From contig JAFXJK010000058.1 in the NCBI GenBank assembly GCA_017532355.1, positions 1 through 64,000 on the forward strand: DNA of 64,000 nucleotides, written 5' to 3'. The translations under genes were made by a program, and so were the position numbers. The notes beneath the pieces were generated by a model. That model searched no databases. It was not told the DNA's origin and saw only the letters and a program-made list of their open reading frames with translations. Shown piece after piece: positions 34,970 through 45,304 of this stretch (position 1 is its first letter; the number at the start of each line of letters is the position of its first letter). This stretch comes from Oscillospiraceae bacterium. Lineage in GTDB: Bacteria > Bacillota_A > Clostridia > Oscillospirales > JAAYXM01.

Positions 34970-35030
34970 AGTATAATAATGCAAAATTAAATGTCCAATG
35001 TTTTATTTTTCCATACAGGAGGTAATATTT

Positions 35031-36116
35031 ATGTTTGAAAACCGCGTTTACAACTTCTCTGCAGGTCCGTCCATGCTCCCTGAGGCAGTCCTTTGCCGTG
35101 CAAGGGACGAGATGCTCAATTTCGCAGGCTCAGGTATGTCTGTTATGGAGATGAGCCACCGCAGTAAGGTTTATGACGATATTATAAAAGGCGTTGAGGC
35201 TCGCCTCCGCAAGCTTCTTGGCATCCCCGATAACTACAAGGTACTCTTCCTTCAGGGCGGTGCATCGCTCCAGTTTGCATCAATTCCGCTCAACCTTATG
35301 AAGAGCGGAAAGGCTGATTACATAGTCACAGGCCAGTTCTCAGGCAACGCTGCAAAGGAAGCAAAGAAGTACGGCGAAGTAAACGTCGTTGCAGACTTAA
35401 AGAGCGAAAACTACGCTCGTATCCCGTCACAGGATGAGCTGAAGCTCTCTCCCGATGCAGACTATGTCCACATCTGCGCTAACAACACTATCTTCGGTAC
35501 ACACTGGAACTACTTCCTTGAGACAGGTAACGTTCCGCTCGTTGCAGATATGTCCTCCTGCATCCTCTCCGAAGCAATCGACGTTTCAAAGTACGGTGTT
35601 ATTTATGCCGGCGCACAGAAGAATATGGCTCCGGCAGGTCTTACGGTCGTTATCGTCCGCGAAGACCTTATCGGAAACGCCCGTGCAGATATTCCGACAG
35701 TTATGGATTACAAGGTAATGGCTGAGAAGGAGTCAATGTACAACACACCAAGTACCTACCCGATTTACGTTTGCGGTCTCGTTCTTGAGTGGATTGAATC
35801 ACTTGGCGGTATTGCAGAGCTTGAGAAGATCAATATCGCAAAGGCAAATCTTCTCTACAACTTCCTTGATGAAAGTAAGCTCTTCATTCCGCACGCTGAA
35901 AAGAGCTCGCGTTCACTCATGAACGTCACATTCAGAACAGGCGATGAAGACCTCGATGCGAAGTTCGTAAAAGAAGCAGGTGCAGAGGGCTTCCTCTCTA
36001 TCAAGGGCCACCGCTCCGTCGGCGGTATGCGCGCATCCATCTACAACGCTATGCCGGTTGAGGGCGTCGAGAAGCTCGTTGCCTTCATGAAGGACTTCGA
36101 AGCAAAGAACAAATAG
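35031..36116 (+). CDS. serC: Phosphoserine aminotransferase
   Basis: PLP enzyme that transaminates 3-phosphohydroxypyruvate with glutamate to phosphoserine. The 361 residues start YNFSAGPSMLPEAVL, contain HICANNTIFGT, and have the PLP lysine in YAGAQKNMAPAGL, with the C-terminal KGHRSVGGMRASIYNAM substrate loop. AGGAGG precedes ATG 35031; the frame from 34998 would start before the leader is complete. With serA it makes two of three steps of serine synthesis; serB is not in the window. Confidence 0.97.
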   Translation: MFENRVYNFSAGPSMLPEAVLCRARDEMLNFAGSGMSVMEMSHRSKVYDDIIKGVEARLRKLLGIPDNYKVLFLQGGASLQFASIPLNLMKSGKADYIVTGQFSGNAAKEAKKYGEVNVVADLKSENYARIPSQDELKLSPDADYVHICANNTIFGTHWNYFLETGNVPLVADMSSCILSEAIDVSKYGVIYAGAQKNMAPAGLTVVIVREDLIGNARADIPTVMDYKVMAEKESMYNTPSTYPIYVCGLVLEWIESLGGIAELEKINIAKANLLYNFLDESKLFIPHAEKSSRSLMNVTFRTGDEDLDAKFVKEAGAEGFLSIKGHRSVGGMRASIYNAMPVEGVEKLVAFMKDFEAKNK

Positions 36117-36128
36117 GAGGTTATCCTG

Positions 36129-37295
36129 ATGTATAACGTAAGACTTGTAAATAAGATTTCTTCAAACGGCCTTTCCCGTTTGCCGAAGGAAGAATTCACC
36201 TGCGGCGCAGACGTTGCAAACCCCACAGCTCTTCTCGTCCGCTCTGCAGACCTTCACTCTGAAGAATTCAACCCGGAGCTTCTCTGCATCGCCCGTGCAG
36301 GCGCAGGTGTCAACAACATTCCGCTTGACCGCGCAGCAGAGGCAGGCATCGTTGTTTTCAACACACCGGGCGCTAACGCAAACGCAGTCAAGGAGCTTGT
36401 TCTCACAGGCCTCTTCCTCGCATCAAGAAAGATAGTCGAGGGTATCGAGTGGGCAAAAACGCTTAAAGATAGCGGCGACGAAGCTTCTAAGCTCGTTGAA
36501 AAGGGCAAGGGCCAGTTTGTCGGTCCTGAAATCGAGGGTAAGACGCTCGGCGTAATCGGCCTCGGTGCTATCGGCGTCCTCGTTGCAAACGCTGCAGAAC
36601 GCCTTGGTATGAACGTTCTCGGTTATGACCCGTACCTCTCCGTTGACGCGGCTTGGAGCGTATCGCGCAACATCCGCCACTGCACAGACATCAACGAGAT
36701 TTACGAAAAGAGCGATTATATCACAATCCACGTTCCGGCAACACCCGAAACCACGGGTATGATCAACTCTGCTACAATGTCCATTATGAAGGACGGCGTA
36801 AGAATACTCAACTTCGCTCGCGGAAGCCTTGTAAACACAGCCGATATTTTAAAGGCTATCGAAGAGGGCAAGGTTGCAAAGTACGTTACAGACTTCCCCG
36901 AGGCTGCTCTTATCGGCGTCGAGAACGTCATCGCAATTCCGCACCTCGGAGCCTCCACTCCTGAAAGTGAAGAGAACTGCGCAGTTATGGCAGTTGATGA
37001 GCTCAAGAACTACGTTCTCAAGGGCAACATCAAGAACTCCGTAAACTTCCCGACGGTTGTAATGCCAAAAAGCGGCGATTGCAGACTTTGCATTCTCCAC
37101 AGAAACGTTCCGAACGTAGTTAACAGCATCACATCCGCAACGAGTGCGGCAGGGCTCAACATCGCAAATATGCAGAACGCTTCAAAACGTGACTGGGCAT
37201 ATACGATGATTGACATCGACGGTGACGTTTCGGACGACATTGTCGAAAAGGTTTCAGCTCTTCCGGAAGTTGTCCGTGCGAGACTTATAAAGTAG
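36129..37295 (+). CDS. serA: D-3-phosphoglycerate dehydrogenase
   Basis: NAD-dependent first enzyme of serine synthesis. The 388 residues have the catalytic domain, the NAD motif GVIGLGAIGVLVANAAERLG, DPYLSVDAAWSV, the catalytic His in AIPHLGASTPESEENCA, and a C-terminal ACT-like regulatory part (about 310-388) that may sense serine. It is of the shorter type, without the extra ASB domain. AGGAGG lies before ATG 36129, which is 12 bases after serC. The next feature downstream is a cobalamin riboswitch that belongs to the next operon. Confidence 0.95.
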   Translation: MYNVRLVNKISSNGLSRLPKEEFTCGADVANPTALLVRSADLHSEEFNPELLCIARAGAGVNNIPLDRAAEAGIVVFNTPGANANAVKELVLTGLFLASRKIVEGIEWAKTLKDSGDEASKLVEKGKGQFVGPEIEGKTLGVIGLGAIGVLVANAAERLGMNVLGYDPYLSVDAAWSVSRNIRHCTDINEIYEKSDYITIHVPATPETTGMINSATMSIMKDGVRILNFARGSLVNTADILKAIEEGKVAKYVTDFPEAALIGVENVIAIPHLGASTPESEENCAVMAVDELKNYVLKGNIKNSVNFPTVVMPKSGDCRLCILHRNVPNVVNSITSATSAAGLNIANMQNASKRDWAYTMIDIDGDVSDDIVEKVSALPEVVRARLIK

Positions 37296-37332
37296 TTAAA
37301 AGAAGCTTTTTTCATAAAATTTAATATTCACA

Positions 37333-37512
37333 CAGAGTGTCGTCCATGCCGTTTGGGTATGGTCGGTGGAAAGGGAACACGGTGAGAACCCGTGACGATA
37401 CCAGTCGCTGTATGTGTCCGTTTATGCTCGTTGACGAAAGTCAGTCATTGGGAAACTGAGAAGGCAGAACATAAACTATGAGGCACGAGCCAGAAGACCT
37501 GCTTTGATGCTT
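37333..37512 (+). promoter_or_regulatory. Cobalamin riboswitch aptamer
   Basis: The conserved core AAAGGGAACACGGTGAGAAC (37370-37389) continues into CCGTGACG, and the B12-box-like GAGCCAGAAGACCTGC is at 37487-37502. A P2 hairpin CCATGCC/GGGTATGG lies at 37344-37362. These are hallmark cobalamin riboswitch elements. The riboswitch lies just upstream of the SLH/DUF4430/ECF operon and controls it. The exact class (AdoCbl or MeCbl) was not resolved. Confidence 0.9.
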
Positions 37513-37617
37513 TTCCGTCCGTGCATTTGCATAGGAAAGGCAGATTTGTAAAGTGCTTTGAGTAGTTTTCCTCAAGGCTTTACTCGCTTTGCAAATTGTG
37601 AAGCTCACGGAAATACT

Positions 37618-37655
37618 GCCGTGGCAACCGTATCGGTTGCCACGGCATTTTATTT
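37618..37655 (+). terminator. Riboswitch expression-platform terminator
   Basis: The 13-bp perfect stem GCCGTGGCAACCG/CGGTTGCCACGGC with a TAT loop is followed by ATTTTATTT. It lies between aptamer and start codon, so B12 binding likely forces early termination. Confidence 0.88.
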
Positions 37656-37684
37656 CAAAATAAAAAAAGGAGAAAAAAGAAAAA

Positions 37685-40462
37685 ATGAAAAAGTTAACGG
37701 CAGCAATACTTTGCATAATTATGGTACTCTCGCTGGTGTCGGGAGTATCTTATGCGACAGATGAAAACATAAGCGTTACGGTAAGGTTTGACGCGGCCAC
37801 TGTTGCGGCGGATATGGATACGCTATATTCCGACCTTCTTGCGTCGGGTATAATCAACGGAGAGACGACAAACCTCCCGTCTGATATAACGGTAACCGTC
37901 GCAAAAGGCTCGAGCGTAAAGGCGGTTATTGAAGAAGCGCAGAAAGAATGTGCATTTACGATAGAAGGTCTTTCAGAAAACTATATCACGCAGGTTGGAT
38001 TTGTCGGAAGCGACGTGCTTGAGAACCTCGTAAGCATCCCCGTCGGCGATTATATGAGCGGAAACGTCTTTTCTTCGGCAGGTTGGAGCTTTTCACTTGA
38101 CGGCGCAGCCCTCACGTCCGGAATTGATGCCGCAACTGTGGGAAACGACGGCGCAGTTATCGAGGGCCGCTTTGGACTTTATACAGGCTGGGACGAAAAC
38201 TGGAACGCGATAAACTATGACAGAAATTTCCTTGCAAGCTACGCAGAGTTAAAAGAACTCGCAGAGCGTACTGTCAATACGGACAATTTCAGCGAAGAAC
38301 AGAAGCAGAAATTTGAAACAGAAAAAGCAGAATGCCTGGCTCTCCTTTCTGAGATTTACAATGAAGCGTGCCTCAACGACGAGGTCTCCGCTCTTCTCAG
38401 GGAAGCACACCCCACCTTCAAAACGGGCGGCGGTATGTGGATTGGTTATATTGAGAAAAAGGGAGAAGCTCTTTACGGAGCAGATTCACCGACAGAGAAG
38501 ATGGAGAGTGCAAATAAGGAACTCTCTACAGCAACCACACCGACTGACGAGAGCGTTATTGCGGACAAGGAGAGAATTGATACACTTCTCGGAAACATCG
38601 CAGGGGCATACACCGAAAAAAACTCCTGCTGGGAAGTAATGGATATGGGCGCATACAAAAAGTATGCATCCGAAACGGATAAAGTTCTCTCTGAAACTGC
38701 AACGAAAGAATTTGTGAAAGAGAGCATTGCGGATATCGCAGGAACCGACAGAGATTCAGATCTCACAAAGGCAATTCTTGCCCTTACGGCAACAGGAAAG
38801 GACGCGACAAAGCTCTATAAGGAAAACAGCAACACTCCGATAAGCGCAATTTCAAAGCTTAACGCCGCAGAACAGTCAACAAGCGTTTGGAGCGCACCGT
38901 ACACACTTGCAGCATATAACCGCGAGGAATACGCAAACCGCGAAAAGGAAATCGCGCTTGTAAACGCGCTTCTCGCATCGCAGGGGGAGAACGGTGAATG
39001 GGATGAGTTTGGTACAATTGATACTACCGCAAATGCAATCGCAGGCCTCGCGTTCTATATGGATGACGAGGACGAAGAGGTAAAGACAAAGGTAAATGAA
39101 GCGATAGAAAAAGCTCTTGAGTATTTATCAACACAGCAGAACGCAGACGGAAGTTTTTCCGATTCATGGTCGGGAGCAAACTCAAACTCAACGGCAATGG
39201 TCGCAATCGCGCTTGCAGCGGCAGGTGTGGATACTGAAAATGACGCACGTTTTATAAAAAACGGTAAGGGCATAATTGACGGACTTCTCACATTTGCACT
39301 TTCCGACAACAGCGGTTTCGGGCACACAAACAACACCGCATTGAGTGATTACTCAACCGAGCAGGGTTTCCGCGCTCTCATCGCGCTTGCAGGAGCTATA
39401 AGGGCAGGTGCGGCGTATAACGTATATGACTTTAACGGAATTACGCTTACCCCGGCACGTGAAGCAGGTGAGACCACAGGTGGAGGAAGCTCGTCCGAGC
39501 CGTCAGGAGACGATATTTCGGTCTCGCTCACAATCAAGGCGGATAGCGAATATTGGCTTCGCGGATATAACGTAATACTCCCGGGTAAGAGTGCTTGCGT
39601 ATATGACGCGTTCGTAAAAGGGTGCCGCGAAAACGGCATAACCTACAAAGGCTCGGACAATGGATATATTTCCGCAATAACAAAAGACGGAAAAACTCTT
39701 GCCGAGCGTGATAATGGTCCGAATTCGGGATGGCTTTATAAGCTTAACGGCATTTCTCCGCTTGAGGGGACTCGCGAATGTGCAATCGAAAACGGCGACA
39801 GCATTCAGTTCTATTATACAAAGGACTACACAAGTGAGCCGGGGTCGGGAGCTTGGCGTGACGAAACAGAGAATGAAGATCTGAAGACAGAAGAAGAGAA
39901 CGTCCCTACCGAAAAGATTACGTTTGCAGACGTTTCTGAAAATCACTGGGCGGCAGAATATATAGAAGAACTTGCCAAAAAGGGAATTTTAAACGGCAGA
40001 GGTGATATTTTTGCACCGGAAGACAAGATAACCCGTGCCGAGTTTGTTACAATTCTCTCAAGAATAGAAAACGAAGATGTCTCGGGCAAAGTCGTGTTTG
40101 AAGATGTAAGTGAAAGTGCATGGTATGCAAAGAGTGTCGCGTGGGCTTATGAAAATGGCATAACAAACGGTATAAGCGATACCGTATTTGCACCGGGAAA
40201 GAACATTACACGTGAAGACATGGCGGTTATGATTGTAAGATACGCCGCGTTGAAAGAAGAAGTACTTAAGGAAGAAAACTCCGCGAAAACCTTCTCCGAC
40301 GAGGCGGATATTGCAGGTTATGCCCTTGATGCTGTCAAAAAAATGCAGGTAGCAGGTATCATATCAGGATTAAGTGACGGTTCATTTGCTCCGAAGCGTT
40401 TTGCAACCCGTGCAGAGACCGCAAAAATGATAAGTATTTTGCTTTCGGTGATTGAAAAATGA
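37685..40462 (+). CDS. SLH-anchored protein with alpha/alpha repeat and DUF4430 (intrinsic-factor-like)
   Basis: A 925-residue exported surface protein. Residues 1-24 are a signal peptide. Residues about 28-170 look like a degenerate DUF4430-like domain (SAGWSFSLDG, then GAVIEGRFGLYTGW). Residues about 185-345 are helical. Residues about 350-585 resemble prenyltransferase/squalene-oxidase-type alpha/alpha repeats (LLASQGENGEWDEFGTIDTT, LSTQQNADGSFSDSW, YSTEQGFRALIALAGA). Residues 611-715 are a good DUF4430/transcobalamin-C-like domain (NSGWLYKLNGISPLEGT, ENGDSIQFYYT). Residues 745-925 are three SLH modules. In animals, intrinsic factor and transcobalamin combine an alpha/alpha barrel with such a beta domain to bind B12. 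Together with the upstream cobalamin riboswitch and downstream ECF genes, a corrinoid-capturing role is inferred. Stop and next start overlap (ATGA). Confidence 0.88.
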   Translation: MKKLTAAILCIIMVLSLVSGVSYATDENISVTVRFDAATVAADMDTLYSDLLASGIINGETTNLPSDITVTVAKGSSVKAVIEEAQKECAFTIEGLSENYITQVGFVGSDVLENLVSIPVGDYMSGNVFSSAGWSFSLDGAALTSGIDAATVGNDGAVIEGRFGLYTGWDENWNAINYDRNFLASYAELKELAERTVNTDNFSEEQKQKFETEKAECLALLSEIYNEACLNDEVSALLREAHPTFKTGGGMWIGYIEKKGEALYGADSPTEKMESANKELSTATTPTDESVIADKERIDTLLGNIAGAYTEKNSCWEVMDMGAYKKYASETDKVLSETATKEFVKESIADIAGTDRDSDLTKAILALTATGKDATKLYKENSNTPISAISKLNAAEQSTSVWSAPYTLAAYNREEYANREKEIALVNALLASQGENGEWDEFGTIDTTANAIAGLAFYMDDEDEEVKTKVNEAIEKALEYLSTQQNADGSFSDSWSGANSNSTAMVAIALAAAGVDTENDARFIKNGKGIIDGLLTFALSDNSGFGHTNNTALSDYSTEQGFRALIALAGAIRAGAAYNVYDFNGITLTPAREAGETTGGGSSSEPSGDDISVSLTIKADSEYWLRGYNVILPGKSACVYDAFVKGCRENGITYKGSDNGYISAITKDGKTLAERDNGPNSGWLYKLNGISPLEGTRECAIENGDSIQFYYTKDYTSEPGSGAWRDETENEDLKTEEENVPTEKITFADVSENHWAAEYIEELAKKGILNGRGDIFAPEDKITRAEFVTILSRIENEDVSGKVVFEDVSESAWYAKSVAWAYENGITNGISDTVFAPGKNITREDMAVMIVRYAALKEEVLKEENSAKTFSDEADIAGYALDAVKKMQVAGIISGLSDGSFAPKRFATRAETAKMISILLSVIEK

Positions 40463-41151
40463 GAAAGAGATTGATATTGCTCATTTTAGCTCTCGTATCC
40501 GCAATAGGCATTGTGTTCTCTCTGTGCGCTTGTGATAAAAGCGCGCAGAGCCCATCGGCTCCGACGGAAGGGAAAAGAGCAGAAGAGCCAACTGTTGTGG
40601 AGACAGAGGGGCCTGAGATTGAAATTCAGCAAGAAACGGCACAGCCGGAAGTTAAGACAGAAAAGAAGCCTGAGCCGAGAAAGGAAGAACCGTCTCTGCC
40701 GCAAAAAGAAGAAATACCGCAAATTCCGGTATCTGAAGAAGGAAAGGAAAAGGCAAACACTTGCCTTATTTCGGTAAGTTGTGATACAATTTTGAAAAGG
40801 CCGGAGCTTCTTGCCGAAGAAAAAAGGGAACTTCTTCCAACAGACGGAAAAATCCTTGACGTGCGCGAAGTGACCTTTGAAGAAGACGAAAGCGCCTTTG
40901 ACATACTTCTGCGCGTATTGAAGGAAGAAAAAATCCACATAGAATTTATGGAGACTCCGCTTTATGACAGCGTGTACATCGAGGGAATAGGCAATATTTA
41001 CGAGATGGACTGCGGAAAGCTCTCAGGCTGGATGTACAAGGTGAATGGAAACTTTCTGCAGGTAAGCTCTTCTGCATATCAGCCAAAGAGCGGTGATGAA
41101 ATCGAATGGGTTTATACCTGTGATGCAGGAAAGGATATCGGCGGACAATAA
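40459..41151 (+). CDS. DUF4430 lipoprotein
   Basis: A 230-residue lipoprotein. The signal ends at lipobox LCAC (Cys25), followed by a long Pro/Glu/Lys-rich linker (about 30-100) and a C-terminal DUF4430/transcobalamin-C-like domain (about 100-225; FEEDESAFDILLRVL, GKLSGWMYKVNGNF, KSGDEIEWVYTCD). It would sit on the outer leaflet of the membrane, one domain copy closer to the transporter than the wall-anchored protein. It overlaps the preceding gene by ATGA and is followed by EcfT after about 24 bases. It could hand the corrinoid to the S component; that is inference. Confidence 0.87.
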   Translation: MRKRLILLILALVSAIGIVFSLCACDKSAQSPSAPTEGKRAEEPTVVETEGPEIEIQQETAQPEVKTEKKPEPRKEEPSLPQKEEIPQIPVSEEGKEKANTCLISVSCDTILKRPELLAEEKRELLPTDGKILDVREVTFEEDESAFDILLRVLKEEKIHIEFMETPLYDSVYIEGIGNIYEMDCGKLSGWMYKVNGNFLQVSSSAYQPKSGDEIEWVYTCDAGKDIGGQ

Positions 41152-41175
41152 GAGTTTTTAGAAAGGAGAGTGAAT

Positions 41176-42051
41176 ATGCGAGCGTTTAAAGACTACCATC
41201 CGATTGTGAATTTAATATATTTTCTCGCGGTGATTGGCTTTTCTGTGGTGTTTATGCACCCCGTCTGCATCGCGATTTCTCTCTCCTGCGCTCTTGTTTA
41301 TTCGGTAATCCTCCGCGGACGGAGAGCGGTGGTTCTGTCGCTTGGTATGATGCTTCCGCTATTTATATTTACTGCGCTGTTAAATCCCGTCTTCAACCAC
41401 GCAGGAGCAACGGTGCTTGCGTATCTTCCCGACGGAAATCCGCTGACGTTAGAGTCGCTTCTCTACGGGCTCTGCTCGGCGGGGATGCTCGTGTCGGTGA
41501 TATGCATCTTCTCGTGCTTTGGCACAGTTGTATCGGGAGAAAAGTTTATCTATCTTTTTGGACGAATCCTGCCGAGTATTGCCCTGCTTATCAAAATGAC
41601 GTTTCGGTTTGTTCCGCTGTTTGCAAGGGAGATAAAAGAGGTTTCCGATGCACAGAAAGGAATAGGCAAAGGTGAGAACACCTCACTTCTCCAAAAGGCG
41701 CGCTCGGGAATATCGGTGCTCTCGGTCATGATAACAAAAAGCCTTGAGAACGCCGTGGAGACTGCATCTTCGATGAAGAGCCGAGGCTACGGAAGCGGAA
41801 AGAGGACAGCGTTTTCAAACTACAAGTTTTCTTCAAGTGACGGAACAATCCTCGGTGCCACCGTCTTACTTTTCGCGCTTATTCTTTTTGGCGCCGCCCT
41901 CGGAGAAAACTCCGCGCAATTCTTCCCGAAAATAAAAATTACCCCCATAACGTGGGAGAATGTCGAATTTTTCATAGCATATTTTATTCTTTCGGCTCTG
42001 CCGATGGTAATTGAGATAAAGGAGGTGTGGAGATGGAAAAAATCAAGGTAG
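41176..42051 (+). CDS. ECF transporter transmembrane component EcfT
   Basis: A 291-residue CbiQ/EcfT-family membrane protein with several hydrophobic segments. The family signature around the coupling helices is present (SSMKSRGYGSGKRTAFSNYK). EcfT links the ATPases to the substrate-binding S component. A GTG at 41170 is in frame, but AAGGAG spaced 7 bases from ATG 41176 fixes the start. The C-terminus overlaps the fused ATPase gene by 19 bases, so the proteins are made together. Confidence 0.92.
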   Translation: MRAFKDYHPIVNLIYFLAVIGFSVVFMHPVCIAISLSCALVYSVILRGRRAVVLSLGMMLPLFIFTALLNPVFNHAGATVLAYLPDGNPLTLESLLYGLCSAGMLVSVICIFSCFGTVVSGEKFIYLFGRILPSIALLIKMTFRFVPLFAREIKEVSDAQKGIGKGENTSLLQKARSGISVLSVMITKSLENAVETASSMKSRGYGSGKRTAFSNYKFSSSDGTILGATVLLFALILFGAALGENSAQFFPKIKITPITWENVEFFIAYFILSALPMVIEIKEVWRWKKSR

Positions 42052-44426
42052 AAAATTTAAGCTTTACTTATCCGGGGGAAAGCTCTCCTGCGCTTTCGGG
42101 AATAAATCTTTCGGTTTTGTCAGGTGAGTTTGTTACCGTCTGCGGAAAATCAGGCTCGGGAAAATCGACTCTTCTCCGCGCCCTGAAGCCGTCCCTCACG
42201 CCTCACGGCAAAGCTTCGGGAAGTGTTTTCCTTGACGGGAAAAGAGTTTCGGAGCTTACCTCTCGCGAGGATGCGGAAAAGCTCGGCTTTGTGTTCCAGA
42301 ACCCCGAAAACCAGATAGTTACGGATAAAGTTTGGTCAGAGCTTGCGTTCGGGCTCGAGAGCCTTTCTTACGCTACGGATGAGATACGGCTTCGCGTTGC
42401 GGAAATGGCGTCGTTCTTCGGGCTTTCCGACGTGTTCCACAAAAATGTTTCCGAACTTTCGGGCGGAATGAAACAGACGCTCGCTCTCGCAATCGTTATG
42501 GCGACATCCCCCGAGATTCTCATCCTTGATGAGCCGACGAGCCGCCTCGACCCGATAGCGGCGAAGAAGTTCCTTGAAACCGTTCACAGGTTAAACCGCG
42601 AGCTCGGCGTGACGGTAATTATAAGTGAGCATAACCTCTCTGAGGTTTTTCCGCTCTCTGACCGCGTTGTGGTTATGGAGGACGGCGAAATTTCTGCCGA
42701 TTCCGCACCGAGTGAGATTGGAGAGCTTTTGGAAAACGCAAAGAGCGAGATGTTCCTTGCACTTCCGACGCCTATACAGGCGTATCACTCAAAGAAGAGC
42801 GCCCTCCCGTGCCCGATTACGGTGCGAGAGGGAAGAGCGTGGCTTTCTGAAATGAAAAAGGACGAGGCGTGGAAGTCTCAGGATGAGCCGAAACACCTCG
42901 GCAAGCGTGTTTTGGAAGTAAAGGATGTTTTCTTCCGCTATGAGAAAAACTCGCGTGACGTGTTACGGGATTTTTCCGTTTCCATAAATGAGAGCGAGAT
43001 TTACGCAATCGTCGGAGGAAACGGCGCAGGCAAGACGACCGCGCTCTCGGTAATTGCAAACATCCGCAAAGTGCAGAGCGGCGAGGTTACGGTCGCAGAC
43101 GGGAAGAAGCTTTTAATGCTTCCTCAAAATCCGCAGCTTTTATTTGTCCGCAATACGGTAGAGACAGACCTTTACGAAATAATAAGAGACGACAAAGCTC
43201 TGACAGAAACGGAAAAGAAAGAAAAGGTCTCTGAAATGATGGAGCTTTTCGGGATATCGCATCTCCGTGACCGCCACCCGTACGACCTTTCAGGCGGCGA
43301 GCAGGAGAAGGCGGCACTTGCAAAGGTGCTTCTCGCATCTCCCGATATTCTCCTGCTTGACGAGCCGACAAAAGGTCTCGATGCCCATTTCAAGCGCGAA
43401 CTCGGCGAGCTTTTCAAAGAGCTTTCAGAGCGCAGAATCACAATCCTTATGGTCACGCACGACATTGAGTTTGCGGCAAGATATGCAACGCGTTGCGGAA
43501 TGTTCTTTGACGGCGCGATTGTGAGCGAGGGCGAGCCGCGCGAGTTCTTTAGCTGTAAGAACTTTTACACGACTGATGCGGCGAGAATGGCGCGAGGAAT
43601 GCTCGATTCGGTACTTCTTACCGAGGATATTATTTCCGCAATCGGCGGTGAGGAGCGAGTTTTCGCTCCGAAAAAAGAAAAGAACTTTCTTTCTTCAAAA
43701 AGGGAAGAAAGCAAAGCTTTTGAGACGAAGAAAAAAACGAACAAAATGAGCGTAGCCTTGTCTTGTATAATCTTTCTGATTCTTATTCCGCTTACTGTAT
43801 TTTTCGGAATGAAATATCTTGACGACAGAAAGTATTATTTCATAAGCATTTTGCTCATAATTGAAACCCTTATCCCGTTTTTTGTAATGTTTGAAAAACG
43901 AAAACCGCGAGCAAAGGAAATTGTAATTGTCGCGGTAATGTGCGCACTTGCCGTTATCGGCCGTGTTGCGTTTGAGGCGATTCCGCAGTTTAAGCCCGTC
44001 GCGGCAATCGTCATAATCTCGGGCATTATGCTCGGCGGAGAGTCGGGCTTTCTGGTTGGTGCGCTGTCTGCGTTTGTATCGAACTTCTTCTTCGGACAGA
44101 CGCCGTTTACGCCGTGGCAGATGTTTGCGTTCGGCCTTATAGGTTTCATATCGGGAATTTTATTCAGAAAAGGTATGCCGAAAAACAGAATTTGGGTTTG
44201 CCTCTTCGGCTTTTTCGCAACGTTCATAATATACGGCGGAATATTAAACCCCGTTTCCGTAATTCTCGGTCAGCCAAACCCGACGGCGGAAATGTTCCTT
44301 ACGGCTTATGTAACGGGCTTTGCGTTTGACATCGTCCACTCTCTTGCAACGGCGACATTTCTCTTCTTCATTGCAAAGCCGCTTGCAGAAAAACTCTCTC
44401 GCATCAAGAAAAAATACGGAATATGA
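42033..44426 (+). CDS. Fused EcfA-EcfA'-S component of an ECF transporter (probable corrinoid)
   Basis: One 797-residue polypeptide. The first ABC ATPase (about 1-240) has Walker A GKSGSGKST (38-46), signature LSGGMKQ (142-148) and Walker B ILILDEP (162-168). The second (about 290-520) has GGNGAGKTT (328-336), LSGGEQEK (419-426) and ILLLDEP (439-445). A charged linker (about 540-572) leads to a membrane S component (572-797) with about six helices (GRVAFEAIPQFKPVAAIVII, GALSAFVSNFFFGQTPFTPW). Separate A, A' and S genes are normal; fusing all three is unusual. The S component resembles those often annotated riboflavin-type, but the B12 riboswitch and DUF4430 genes point to cobalamin. GGAGG before ATG 42033 decides the start. 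Confidence 0.9.
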   Translation: MEKIKVENLSFTYPGESSPALSGINLSVLSGEFVTVCGKSGSGKSTLLRALKPSLTPHGKASGSVFLDGKRVSELTSREDAEKLGFVFQNPENQIVTDKVWSELAFGLESLSYATDEIRLRVAEMASFFGLSDVFHKNVSELSGGMKQTLALAIVMATSPEILILDEPTSRLDPIAAKKFLETVHRLNRELGVTVIISEHNLSEVFPLSDRVVVMEDGEISADSAPSEIGELLENAKSEMFLALPTPIQAYHSKKSALPCPITVREGRAWLSEMKKDEAWKSQDEPKHLGKRVLEVKDVFFRYEKNSRDVLRDFSVSINESEIYAIVGGNGAGKTTALSVIANIRKVQSGEVTVADGKKLLMLPQNPQLLFVRNTVETDLYEIIRDDKALTETEKKEKVSEMMELFGISHLRDRHPYDLSGGEQEKAALAKVLLASPDILLLDEPTKGLDAHFKRELGELFKELSERRITILMVTHDIEFAARYATRCGMFFDGAIVSEGEPREFFSCKNFYTTDAARMARGMLDSVLLTEDIISAIGGEERVFAPKKEKNFLSSKREESKAFETKKKTNKMSVALSCIIFLILIPLTVFFGMKYLDDRKYYFISILLIIETLIPFFVMFEKRKPRAKEIVIVAVMCALAVIGRVAFEAIPQFKPVAAIVIISGIMLGGESGFLVGALSAFVSNFFFGQTPFTPWQMFAFGLIGFISGILFRKGMPKNRIWVCLFGFFATFIIYGGILNPVSVILGQPNPTAEMFLTAYVTGFAFDIVHSLATATFLFFIAKPLAEKLSRIKKKYGI

Positions 44427-44464: not shown

Positions 44465-45271
44465 CTATACGAAGGTTTTCCGGTACATTTTCGGTGAAGA
44501 GCCCATTTTCTCGGCAAAGCGTCTTGAAAAATAAAATTGGTCGGAAAAACCAAGTCTTTCGCTTATCTGCATAATGAGAAGATTGCTCTCTCTGAGCAGG
44601 CGCGATGCTTCGGCAAAAACGAGATTATCGATATATTCGCCAACGGACATCATAAGCTCGCTTCTGAAATGCTTGTTGAGCGTACTTGGGCTTATCATAC
44701 AATGCTCCGCAATGGTTTTCGTTGTCAATGATACGGAGAGATTTTGCCTGATGTGGTGAATTGCTTCCAGAACGCACGGAGACAGGTTTCGCGTGTTCAG
44801 CTCAACACCGTGCCTATCGACTAAATCGAGAAGGATTTCATAAACACGCTGCCTTATTCGGAGACTCTCACAAACCGAGCGACAATCGAGACCGTTTGAA
44901 AAAAAGCCGAGGTCGCGTGCATCTGCCTTTATCTCGCAGATTTTCGAGCATTGATGGAATAAATCGATTCCGTCAATGTCACACAGACTGAAATGGAAAT
45001 AAAGGTGGTCCATATTTCCGTCGCAGGAGAAATCAAAGGAAAGCCCTGCGGGCAGCAGGTACCAGTTTCCCTCTTCGAGAAAAACATCTTCCGTATCGTT
45101 GACGGTTATGCAACATCTGCCGCTGACAATGTAAAAGAGACGCGAATAGCAAGGGTTGTGCACCTTGCCTTGCCAATGCGTGTCAACTTGAGCCCGTCCG
45201 TAGTATATAAGGCGCAGGTGAACCTGATTGATGTTCTGGCAAAGAAATTGGTTTAATAATGTGCTGTACAT
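44465..45271 (-). CDS. AraC-family transcriptional regulator (unknown-substrate cluster)
   Basis: A 268-residue regulator. The N-terminal cupin (YSRLFYIVSGRCCITVND, GNWYLLPAGLSFDFSC) is followed by two helix-turn-helix units (SLTTKTIAEHCMISPSTLNK; LIMQISERLGFSDQFYFSRR with SSPKMYRKTF at the end). A TTG at 45277 is in frame, but GGAG spaced 8 bases from ATG 45271 fits better. It is divergent from the 45.4-50.4 kb operon, separated by 124 bases, and is the likely activator of those genes. Confidence 0.9.
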   Translation of the reverse strand: MYSTLLNQFLCQNINQVHLRLIYYGRAQVDTHWQGKVHNPCYSRLFYIVSGRCCITVNDTEDVFLEEGNWYLLPAGLSFDFSCDGNMDHLYFHFSLCDIDGIDLFHQCSKICEIKADARDLGFFSNGLDCRSVCESLRIRQRVYEILLDLVDRHGVELNTRNLSPCVLEAIHHIRQNLSVSLTTKTIAEHCMISPSTLNKHFRSELMMSVGEYIDNLVFAEASRLLRESNLLIMQISERLGFSDQFYFSRRFAEKMGSSPKMYRKTFV

Positions 45272-45304
45272 ACTCAAAACTCCATGTTTTTGTCGGTTTT
45301 TCCA

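Follow-up and report, generated by a model that had tools for sequence, protein, structure and literature searches.

Intrinsic factor (IF), transcobalamin (TC) and haptocorrin (HC), the cobalamin carriers of animals (PDB accession nos. 2pmv, 3kq4, 4zrp, 2bb5 and 4kki), consist of an alpha/alpha toroid followed by a beta-grasp domain. Cobalamin is described as being bound first by the beta domain, after which the alpha domain closes; the isolated domains bind as well (PMC11107200), and separately made carrier domains assemble upon cobalamin addition (PMC5599065). Bacterial domains of the same beta type were placed with transcobalamin by Burroughs et al. in 2007, who noted fusions to toroids as well as operons with a second paralogous surface protein and CbiO and CbiQ genes, predicted the scavenging of B12 by such operons of Gram-positive bacteria, and proposed lateral transfer to animals (PMC1796856). 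No experimental test of bacterial transcobalamin-like proteins was found in searches of an open-licence library, preprints and subscription papers excluded. Among importers of the energy-coupling factor (ECF) type, CbrT was a prediction of 2009 that was borne out in 2018 (PMC5997447), and gut reconstructions count CbrUVT among the transporters of B12 (PMC6593275, PMC8123684).

An operon of the kind predicted in 2007 was identified in a stretch of 64,000 nucleotides from an Oscillospiraceae bacterium (contig JAFXJK010000058.1, positions 1 to 64,000), referred to below as the window. Headed by a cobalamin riboswitch, it very probably serves to scavenge corrinoids through a trap anchored by S-layer homology (SLH) domains, a beta-domain lipoprotein and a CbrT-like ECF importer, and confidence in the corrinoid assignment is high. 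It shares with the 2007 systems (PMC1796856) a Gram-positive surface protein with toroid and beta domain, a second paralogous surface protein and CbiO/CbiQ genes, and it is well supported as a variant in which the wall protein has two beta domains and the CbrT-type S component is tethered. A first-pass annotation of this DNA had put forward a corrinoid uptake system; the idea, being in print by 2007, is less new than was supposed there. What is added here are riboswitch statistics, the S-component assignment, the double-beta architecture and the tethered S component with its extra membrane hairpin.

A riboswitch-headed operon of four genes

The features of the operon, with their positions in the window, are as follows.

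37318..37520, + strand: cobalamin riboswitch aptamer (RF00174; Rfam, 74.3 bits, cut-off 31.5)
37617..37655, + strand: terminator hairpin of 14 pairs (37617-37647) and T tract, TTTTATTT
37685..40462, + strand: wall protein, 925 aa; signal peptide (by eye), then beta, helical segment, alpha/alpha, beta and three SLH domains
37757..38188, + strand: N-terminal transcobalamin-type beta domain of the wall protein, residues 25-168, without a Pfam family
38216..38581, + strand: helical segment, residues about 178-299 (secondary structure)
38570..39412, + strand: alpha/alpha toroid, residues 296-576 (predicted model, mean pLDDT 89.3)
39503..39820, + strand: C-terminal beta domain (DUF4430), residues about 607-712 (PF14478, 44.8 bits at 645-713)
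39920..40435, + strand: three SLH domains, residues 746-917 (PF00395, 125 bits, three stretches; solved SLH proteins matched)
40459..41151, + strand: lipoprotein, 230 aa, with a lone DUF4430 beta domain (PF14478, 57.1 bits)
41170..42051, + strand: EcfT (CbiQ-family) transmembrane component, 293 aa (PF02361, 53.5 bits, cut-off 25)
42027..44426, + strand: fused A-A'-S protein, 799 aa (ABC_tran, 187 bits, two stretches; ECF S families by Pfam)
43752..43892, + strand: extra pair of hydrophobic segments, residues 576-622, between A' and the S core (hydropathy)
43896..44423, + strand: CbrT-like S component core, residues about 624-799 (match to 6fnp_A)

The riboswitch match covers model positions 1-189 of 189, and the aptamer is thus complete. 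It is followed by a strong terminator, the hairpin and T tract at 37617..37655, within a leader stretch (37521-37690) that folds with a z score of -5.0, none of 200 shuffles being equally stable. Hairpin and T tract likely form the expression platform of the riboswitch. Four genes on the + strand lie downstream of the leader (37685-40462, 40459-41151, 41170-42051 and 42027-44426), of which the first and second overlap by 4 nt, the second and third are separated by 18 nt and the third and fourth overlap again. The scan for terminator-like sites listed no second one of similar strength on the + strand of the stretch covered, and a single transcript is the natural reading of the sequence. Rfam and Pfam matches together with the gene spacing confirm the arrangement described in the first-pass annotation, namely a cobalamin riboswitch ahead of genes for a wall protein, a DUF4430 lipoprotein, EcfT and an A-A'-S fusion.

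The wall protein and the animal carriers

The SLH domains are predicted to attach the first protein to the cell wall. Wall anchoring had been proposed before and stands; overlooked at that time was the beta domain at residues 25-168, which is also missed by Pfam and gives the protein a beta-alpha-beta make-up. AlphaFold modelling covered the wall protein only. When its alpha/alpha and beta model was compared with the PDB (Foldseek), ranks 1-13 were all taken by transcobalamin, intrinsic factor and haptocorrin (E values 9e-11 to 7e-9, the next match being at 1e-4). The predicted model thus upholds the earlier suggestion that the repeat region and DUF4430 domain resemble the intrinsic factor/transcobalamin fold. 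The placement of the domains in the ligand-free model differs from that in the animal carriers (root-mean-square deviation about 20 A).

Sequence similarity to the animal carriers is near or below detection. Pfam matches of the alpha/alpha region are all sub-threshold (SQHop_cyclase_C, 18.9 bits; eukaryotic Cobalamin_bind, 15.9 bits), and the identity of this region is for that reason taken from its predicted fold; the squalene-cyclase-like repeats expected earlier were not recovered above threshold; DUF4430 was, in two proteins. The PF01122 cut-off (25 bits) was not reached by the wall protein (15.9), the highest score printed for a relative being 21.2 bits (locus L030). Against PDB sequences, profile A1 and the core profile A3, the latter built from 13 rows, matched SLH proteins or terpene cyclases and not IF or TC, and the DUF4430 profile and profile A4 reached TC-2 only at E values of 1.5 and 0.68, respectively. 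Since sequence-only searches gave no clear carrier match, kinship with the animal proteins is argued from predicted folds.

For the beta domains, the PF14478 cut-off of 23.8 bits is passed by both the wall protein (44.8) and the lipoprotein (57.1), which places them in the transcobalamin-like SLBB clade (DUF4430). The lipoprotein domain spans residues 143-220 (40885-41118), and the protein begins with a lipobox-like LCA-C, read by eye. The transcobalamin clade is described as having a hairpin insert after the helix; a conserved aromatic residue of this insert, placed before strand 3, plays a central part in binding the ligand (PMC1796856, PMC1949818). The wall model shows strands 357-360, 369-372 and 375-378 after helix 344-354 (model numbering), read by eye as such an insert. 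All 13 aligned cores share Tyr661 of the C-terminal beta domain, its counterpart in the N-terminal beta domain is Tyr100, and transcobalamin shows a Tyr at the same stretch in a weak alignment (E 1.5). Besides being bacterial, SLH-anchored and furnished with an extra N-terminal beta domain, the wall protein differs from the animal carriers in that its family has no conserved counterpart of the cobalt-binding histidine of transcobalamin, a residue reported to be mostly absent from IF and HC as well (PMC11107200).

An enzymatic role of the alpha/alpha region at the cell surface, of the class II terpene cyclase or polysaccharide lyase type, would agree with cyclases and epimerases being the best profile and VIA matches of the alpha domain. 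The catalytic motif of class II terpene cyclases, D-x-D-D-[TS]-A, was found in none of 126 core matches in 120 listed relatives; moreover, the region is fused to a DUF4430 beta domain and linked to a cobalamin riboswitch. Such an enzyme is considered extremely improbable.

The importer and the proposed corrinoid route

With two Walker A, two signature and two Walker B motifs, the A-A'-S protein contains two complete ABC ATPase domains, and these together with EcfT make up an ECF transporter. A profile of eight S domains searched against solved sequences (E <= 10) matched CbrT (6fnp_A) at 6.7e-15 and 4hzu_S, a predicted membrane protein, at 0.11, with no others; the S domain of the window alone gave 3.6e-10 and 0.16 for the same two. 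By sequence, then, the S component groups with the corrinoid family, as the first-pass annotation had supposed. ECF-CbrT of Lactobacillus delbrueckii (PDB accession no. 6FNP), which like CbrUVT shares with the window system a homologous S component, an ECF module and, as predicted for the window, corrinoid import, transports both cobalamin and cobinamide, and hemin does not compete with B12 in it (PMC5997447). The L. delbrueckii CbrT uses an ECF module common to other S components, whereas in the window EcfT, A and A' are encoded with the S component, which is itself fused to A-A' and carries the extra N-terminal pair of hydrophobic segments.

That a different ligand is moved (cobalt, another tetrapyrrole or a non-corrinoid vitamin), the B12 link being regulatory only, could be argued from the CbiQ-family membership of EcfT, from a match of the S domain to a riboflavin-type S family (Pfam, 45.7 bits) and from the caution of a reviewer of PMC1796856 that ligands within the clade may vary. 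This reading is nonetheless highly unlikely: CbrT is the sole clear match among solved S components, EcfT scores 34.2 bits against a cut-off of 111.8 for the cobalt CbiQ equivalog (TIGR02454, NCBIfam), and hemin failed to compete with B12 in ECF-CbrT.

The extra hydrophobic segments precede the region aligned to CbrT and could be a docking site for the lipoprotein. The loop that joins them reads LDDRKYYFIS in the window and several relatives. Of 291 genomes of one class, that of locus L003 (a Clostridiales metagenome-assembled genome), 104 contain a CbrT-like S component (E <= 1e-10). The S match starts at or before profile position 15 in 94 of the 104, at 22-38 in seven and at 55-60 in three (G041, G021 and G058), where the extra segments are missing. 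The open frame holding the S component has at least 700 residues in 49 of the 104, long enough for an A-A' fusion judging by length, and at most 400 in 54, with one in between; the A-A'-S fusion itself was read from the sequences of the window, L023, L025, L026, L027, L028, L029 and L031. Frames with room for A-A' as well, in 49 of 104 S-positive genomes, bear on the question of whether an S component must leave the ECF module during transport.

Taken together, a hypothetical relay from wall to lipoprotein to ECF importer can be drawn, largely by analogy. The wall protein would catch the corrinoid at the cell wall, away from the membrane; as in the animal carriers, the ligand may settle first on a beta domain before the alpha/alpha toroid closes over it. 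Near the membrane, the beta domain of the lipoprotein would compete the corrinoid away. Passage through the membrane would then fall to the tethered S component, powered by the A and A' ATPase domains of the fusion, which would dock on EcfT. In a corrinoid-replete cell the riboswitch would favour the terminator, switching the operon off. Release of B12 from the animal carriers requires prior proteolysis (PMC11107200); in a bacterial relay the exchange would have to be easier, and lone beta domains together with two beta domains per toroid may offer a way. A fuller scheme, in which two beta domains share one alpha/alpha lid in a three-part trap, hand over beta-to-beta to the lipoprotein without proteolysis and then supply an ATPase-tethered S component with a hairpin dock for the lipoprotein, the whole being a living relative of the bacterial source of the animal carriers, is put forward tentatively and is possible rather than probable.

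The identification of transporters for B12 or its precursors in numerous genomes was named an open problem in a 2019 survey of human gut genomes (PMC6593275). The window locus and its relatives are a concrete riboswitch-linked candidate consisting of surface trap, lipoprotein and dedicated importer. If the proposed reading is right, the system would be a Gram-positive counterpart of BtuG of Bacteroides, likewise a surface lipoprotein catching B12 ahead of a transporter, although BtuG differs in its beta-propeller fold, its host and its partner BtuB (PMC6143338). Under the same condition, its bearers may compete with other members of microbial communities for B12 and its analogues, and the system would be a useful outgroup in tracing how intrinsic factor was acquired by animals.

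Riboswitch linkage and locus anatomy in relatives

The core profile A3 matches 115 of the 291 genomes (wall family, E <= 0.001). A cobalamin riboswitch at E <= 0.001 occurs in 50 of 50 and 56 of 65 of these A3-positive genomes, over the cut-off in 53 of the 65; searches on sets of more than 40 genomes used stricter filters, by which weak riboswitches were lost. For placement, 248 riboswitch rows, below-cut-off ones included, were compared with the best 150 A3 rows, which come from 88 of the 115 genomes. A same-strand riboswitch lies upstream within 10 kb in 98 of these rows, with seven same-strand downstream placements and, on the other strand, four upstream and one downstream. When the best row of each of the 88 genomes is taken, 62 have an upstream riboswitch within 10 kb, and the number rises to 65 if the distance is extended to 20 kb. 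The 23 best rows without one are alpha-only or beta-only matches, except that of G041; the matches of G041 and G079 start within 0.9 kb of the contig start. Among the listed matches with both domains, 16 of 17 have a same-strand upstream riboswitch within 8 kb, and the seventeenth begins at base 69 of its contig.

As a control, the best 150 SLH rows in these 17 genomes were used (SLH matches being found in 16 of them). All seven of the listed SLH rows that adjoin a core match have a riboswitch upstream within 5 kb, compared with none within 10 kb for the 143 other listed rows. The B12 link proposed earlier for the wall protein is strengthened by this association, which recurs in relatives far above controls, and by co-occurrence of the wall family with the CbrT-like S component: of the 291 genomes, 101 have both, three the S component only, 14 the wall family only and 173 neither. 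In 20 family-positive genomes a strong CbrT-like S component is present in 19 and absent from G031; in 20 family-negative genomes only three weak S matches were found (E 3e-7 to 2e-6). B12-binding enzyme domains (PF02310), counted in the family-positive set only, occur in all 20 of these genomes and show a need for B12. CbiC was considered as a sign of corrinoid auxotrophy and dropped, since it is found in 1 of 20 family-positive genomes and is also rare (3 of 20) in those without the wall family. The rows are not independent; G024, G059, G114, G205, G247 and G283, with near-identical scores, are probably close kin. Such kinship inflates the linkage and co-occurrence counts, the direction of which is not in doubt.

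These counts also bear on the view that the ECF transporter imports corrinoid while the surface proteins are general adhesins or polysaccharide binders that merely share the riboswitch transcript. Alpha/alpha toroids and SLH proteins are common, and the alpha domain, when taken by itself, has cyclases and epimerases as its nearest matches. The other listed SLH rows of the control lack a riboswitch within 10 kb upstream, the alpha and beta domain types both point to the animal carriers, and in four loci (L021, L027, L028 and L029) a riboswitch directly precedes a wall gene with no ECF gene on that transcript in the stretch. An adhesin is thus unlikely, and corrinoid trapping is preferred.

Loci L023-L034 were picked from the best matches and not at random. 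A surface gene directly follows the riboswitch in ten loci (L021, L023, L024, L026-L030, L032 and L034), of which L023 and L026 have the ECF genes further along that strand. L027 has them on the opposite strand, L028 and L029 have them ahead of the riboswitch, and in L021, L024, L030, L032 and L034 they fall beyond the stretch read. The first position is taken in L003, L004, L006, L016 and L017 by a gene for a toroid protein, EcfT or a lipoprotein, likewise part of the system. A fuller form is seen in L026, with riboswitch, wall protein with alpha and beta domains, toroid-plus-SLH protein, beta lipoprotein, EcfT and A-A'-S; the window operon is without the toroid-only gene of this form. The first gene of L003 and L004 (L003:2333-3664 and L004:2749-4263) encodes a toroid-related surface protein that ends in the N-terminal domain type of copper amine oxidases (PF07833), which may serve as another anchor. 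Next come a lipoprotein gene, a wall protein gene, an opposite-strand gene and then genes for EcfT, A-A' and a separate S component, with a DUF1836 gene between the opposite-strand gene and EcfT in L003. In the Peptoniphilus genome G006 (L006 and L021), the transporter genes stand behind one riboswitch, and a pair of large surface proteins is encoded behind another.

Small, divergent DUF4430-like proteins are encoded just upstream of the riboswitch in two loci (L003:1573-2067 and L004:2010-2459, both on the - strand). The riboswitch-headed SLH proteins at L021:2562-10139 (- strand) have 1167 and 1228 aa and contain DUF4430, with no ECF genes in the stretch. At L027:1799-7101 (+ strand), genes for a toroid protein, lipoprotein, EcfT and A-A'-S have no riboswitch of their own in the stretch, and the wall gene with its riboswitch runs in the opposite direction to this ECF set (L027:7098-10410, - strand). 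In the window, the operon is faced by a gene for an AraC-type regulator (44465-45277, - strand) and preceded by serC- and serA-like genes for an aminotransferase and a 2-hydroxyacid dehydrogenase (34998-37295, + strand).

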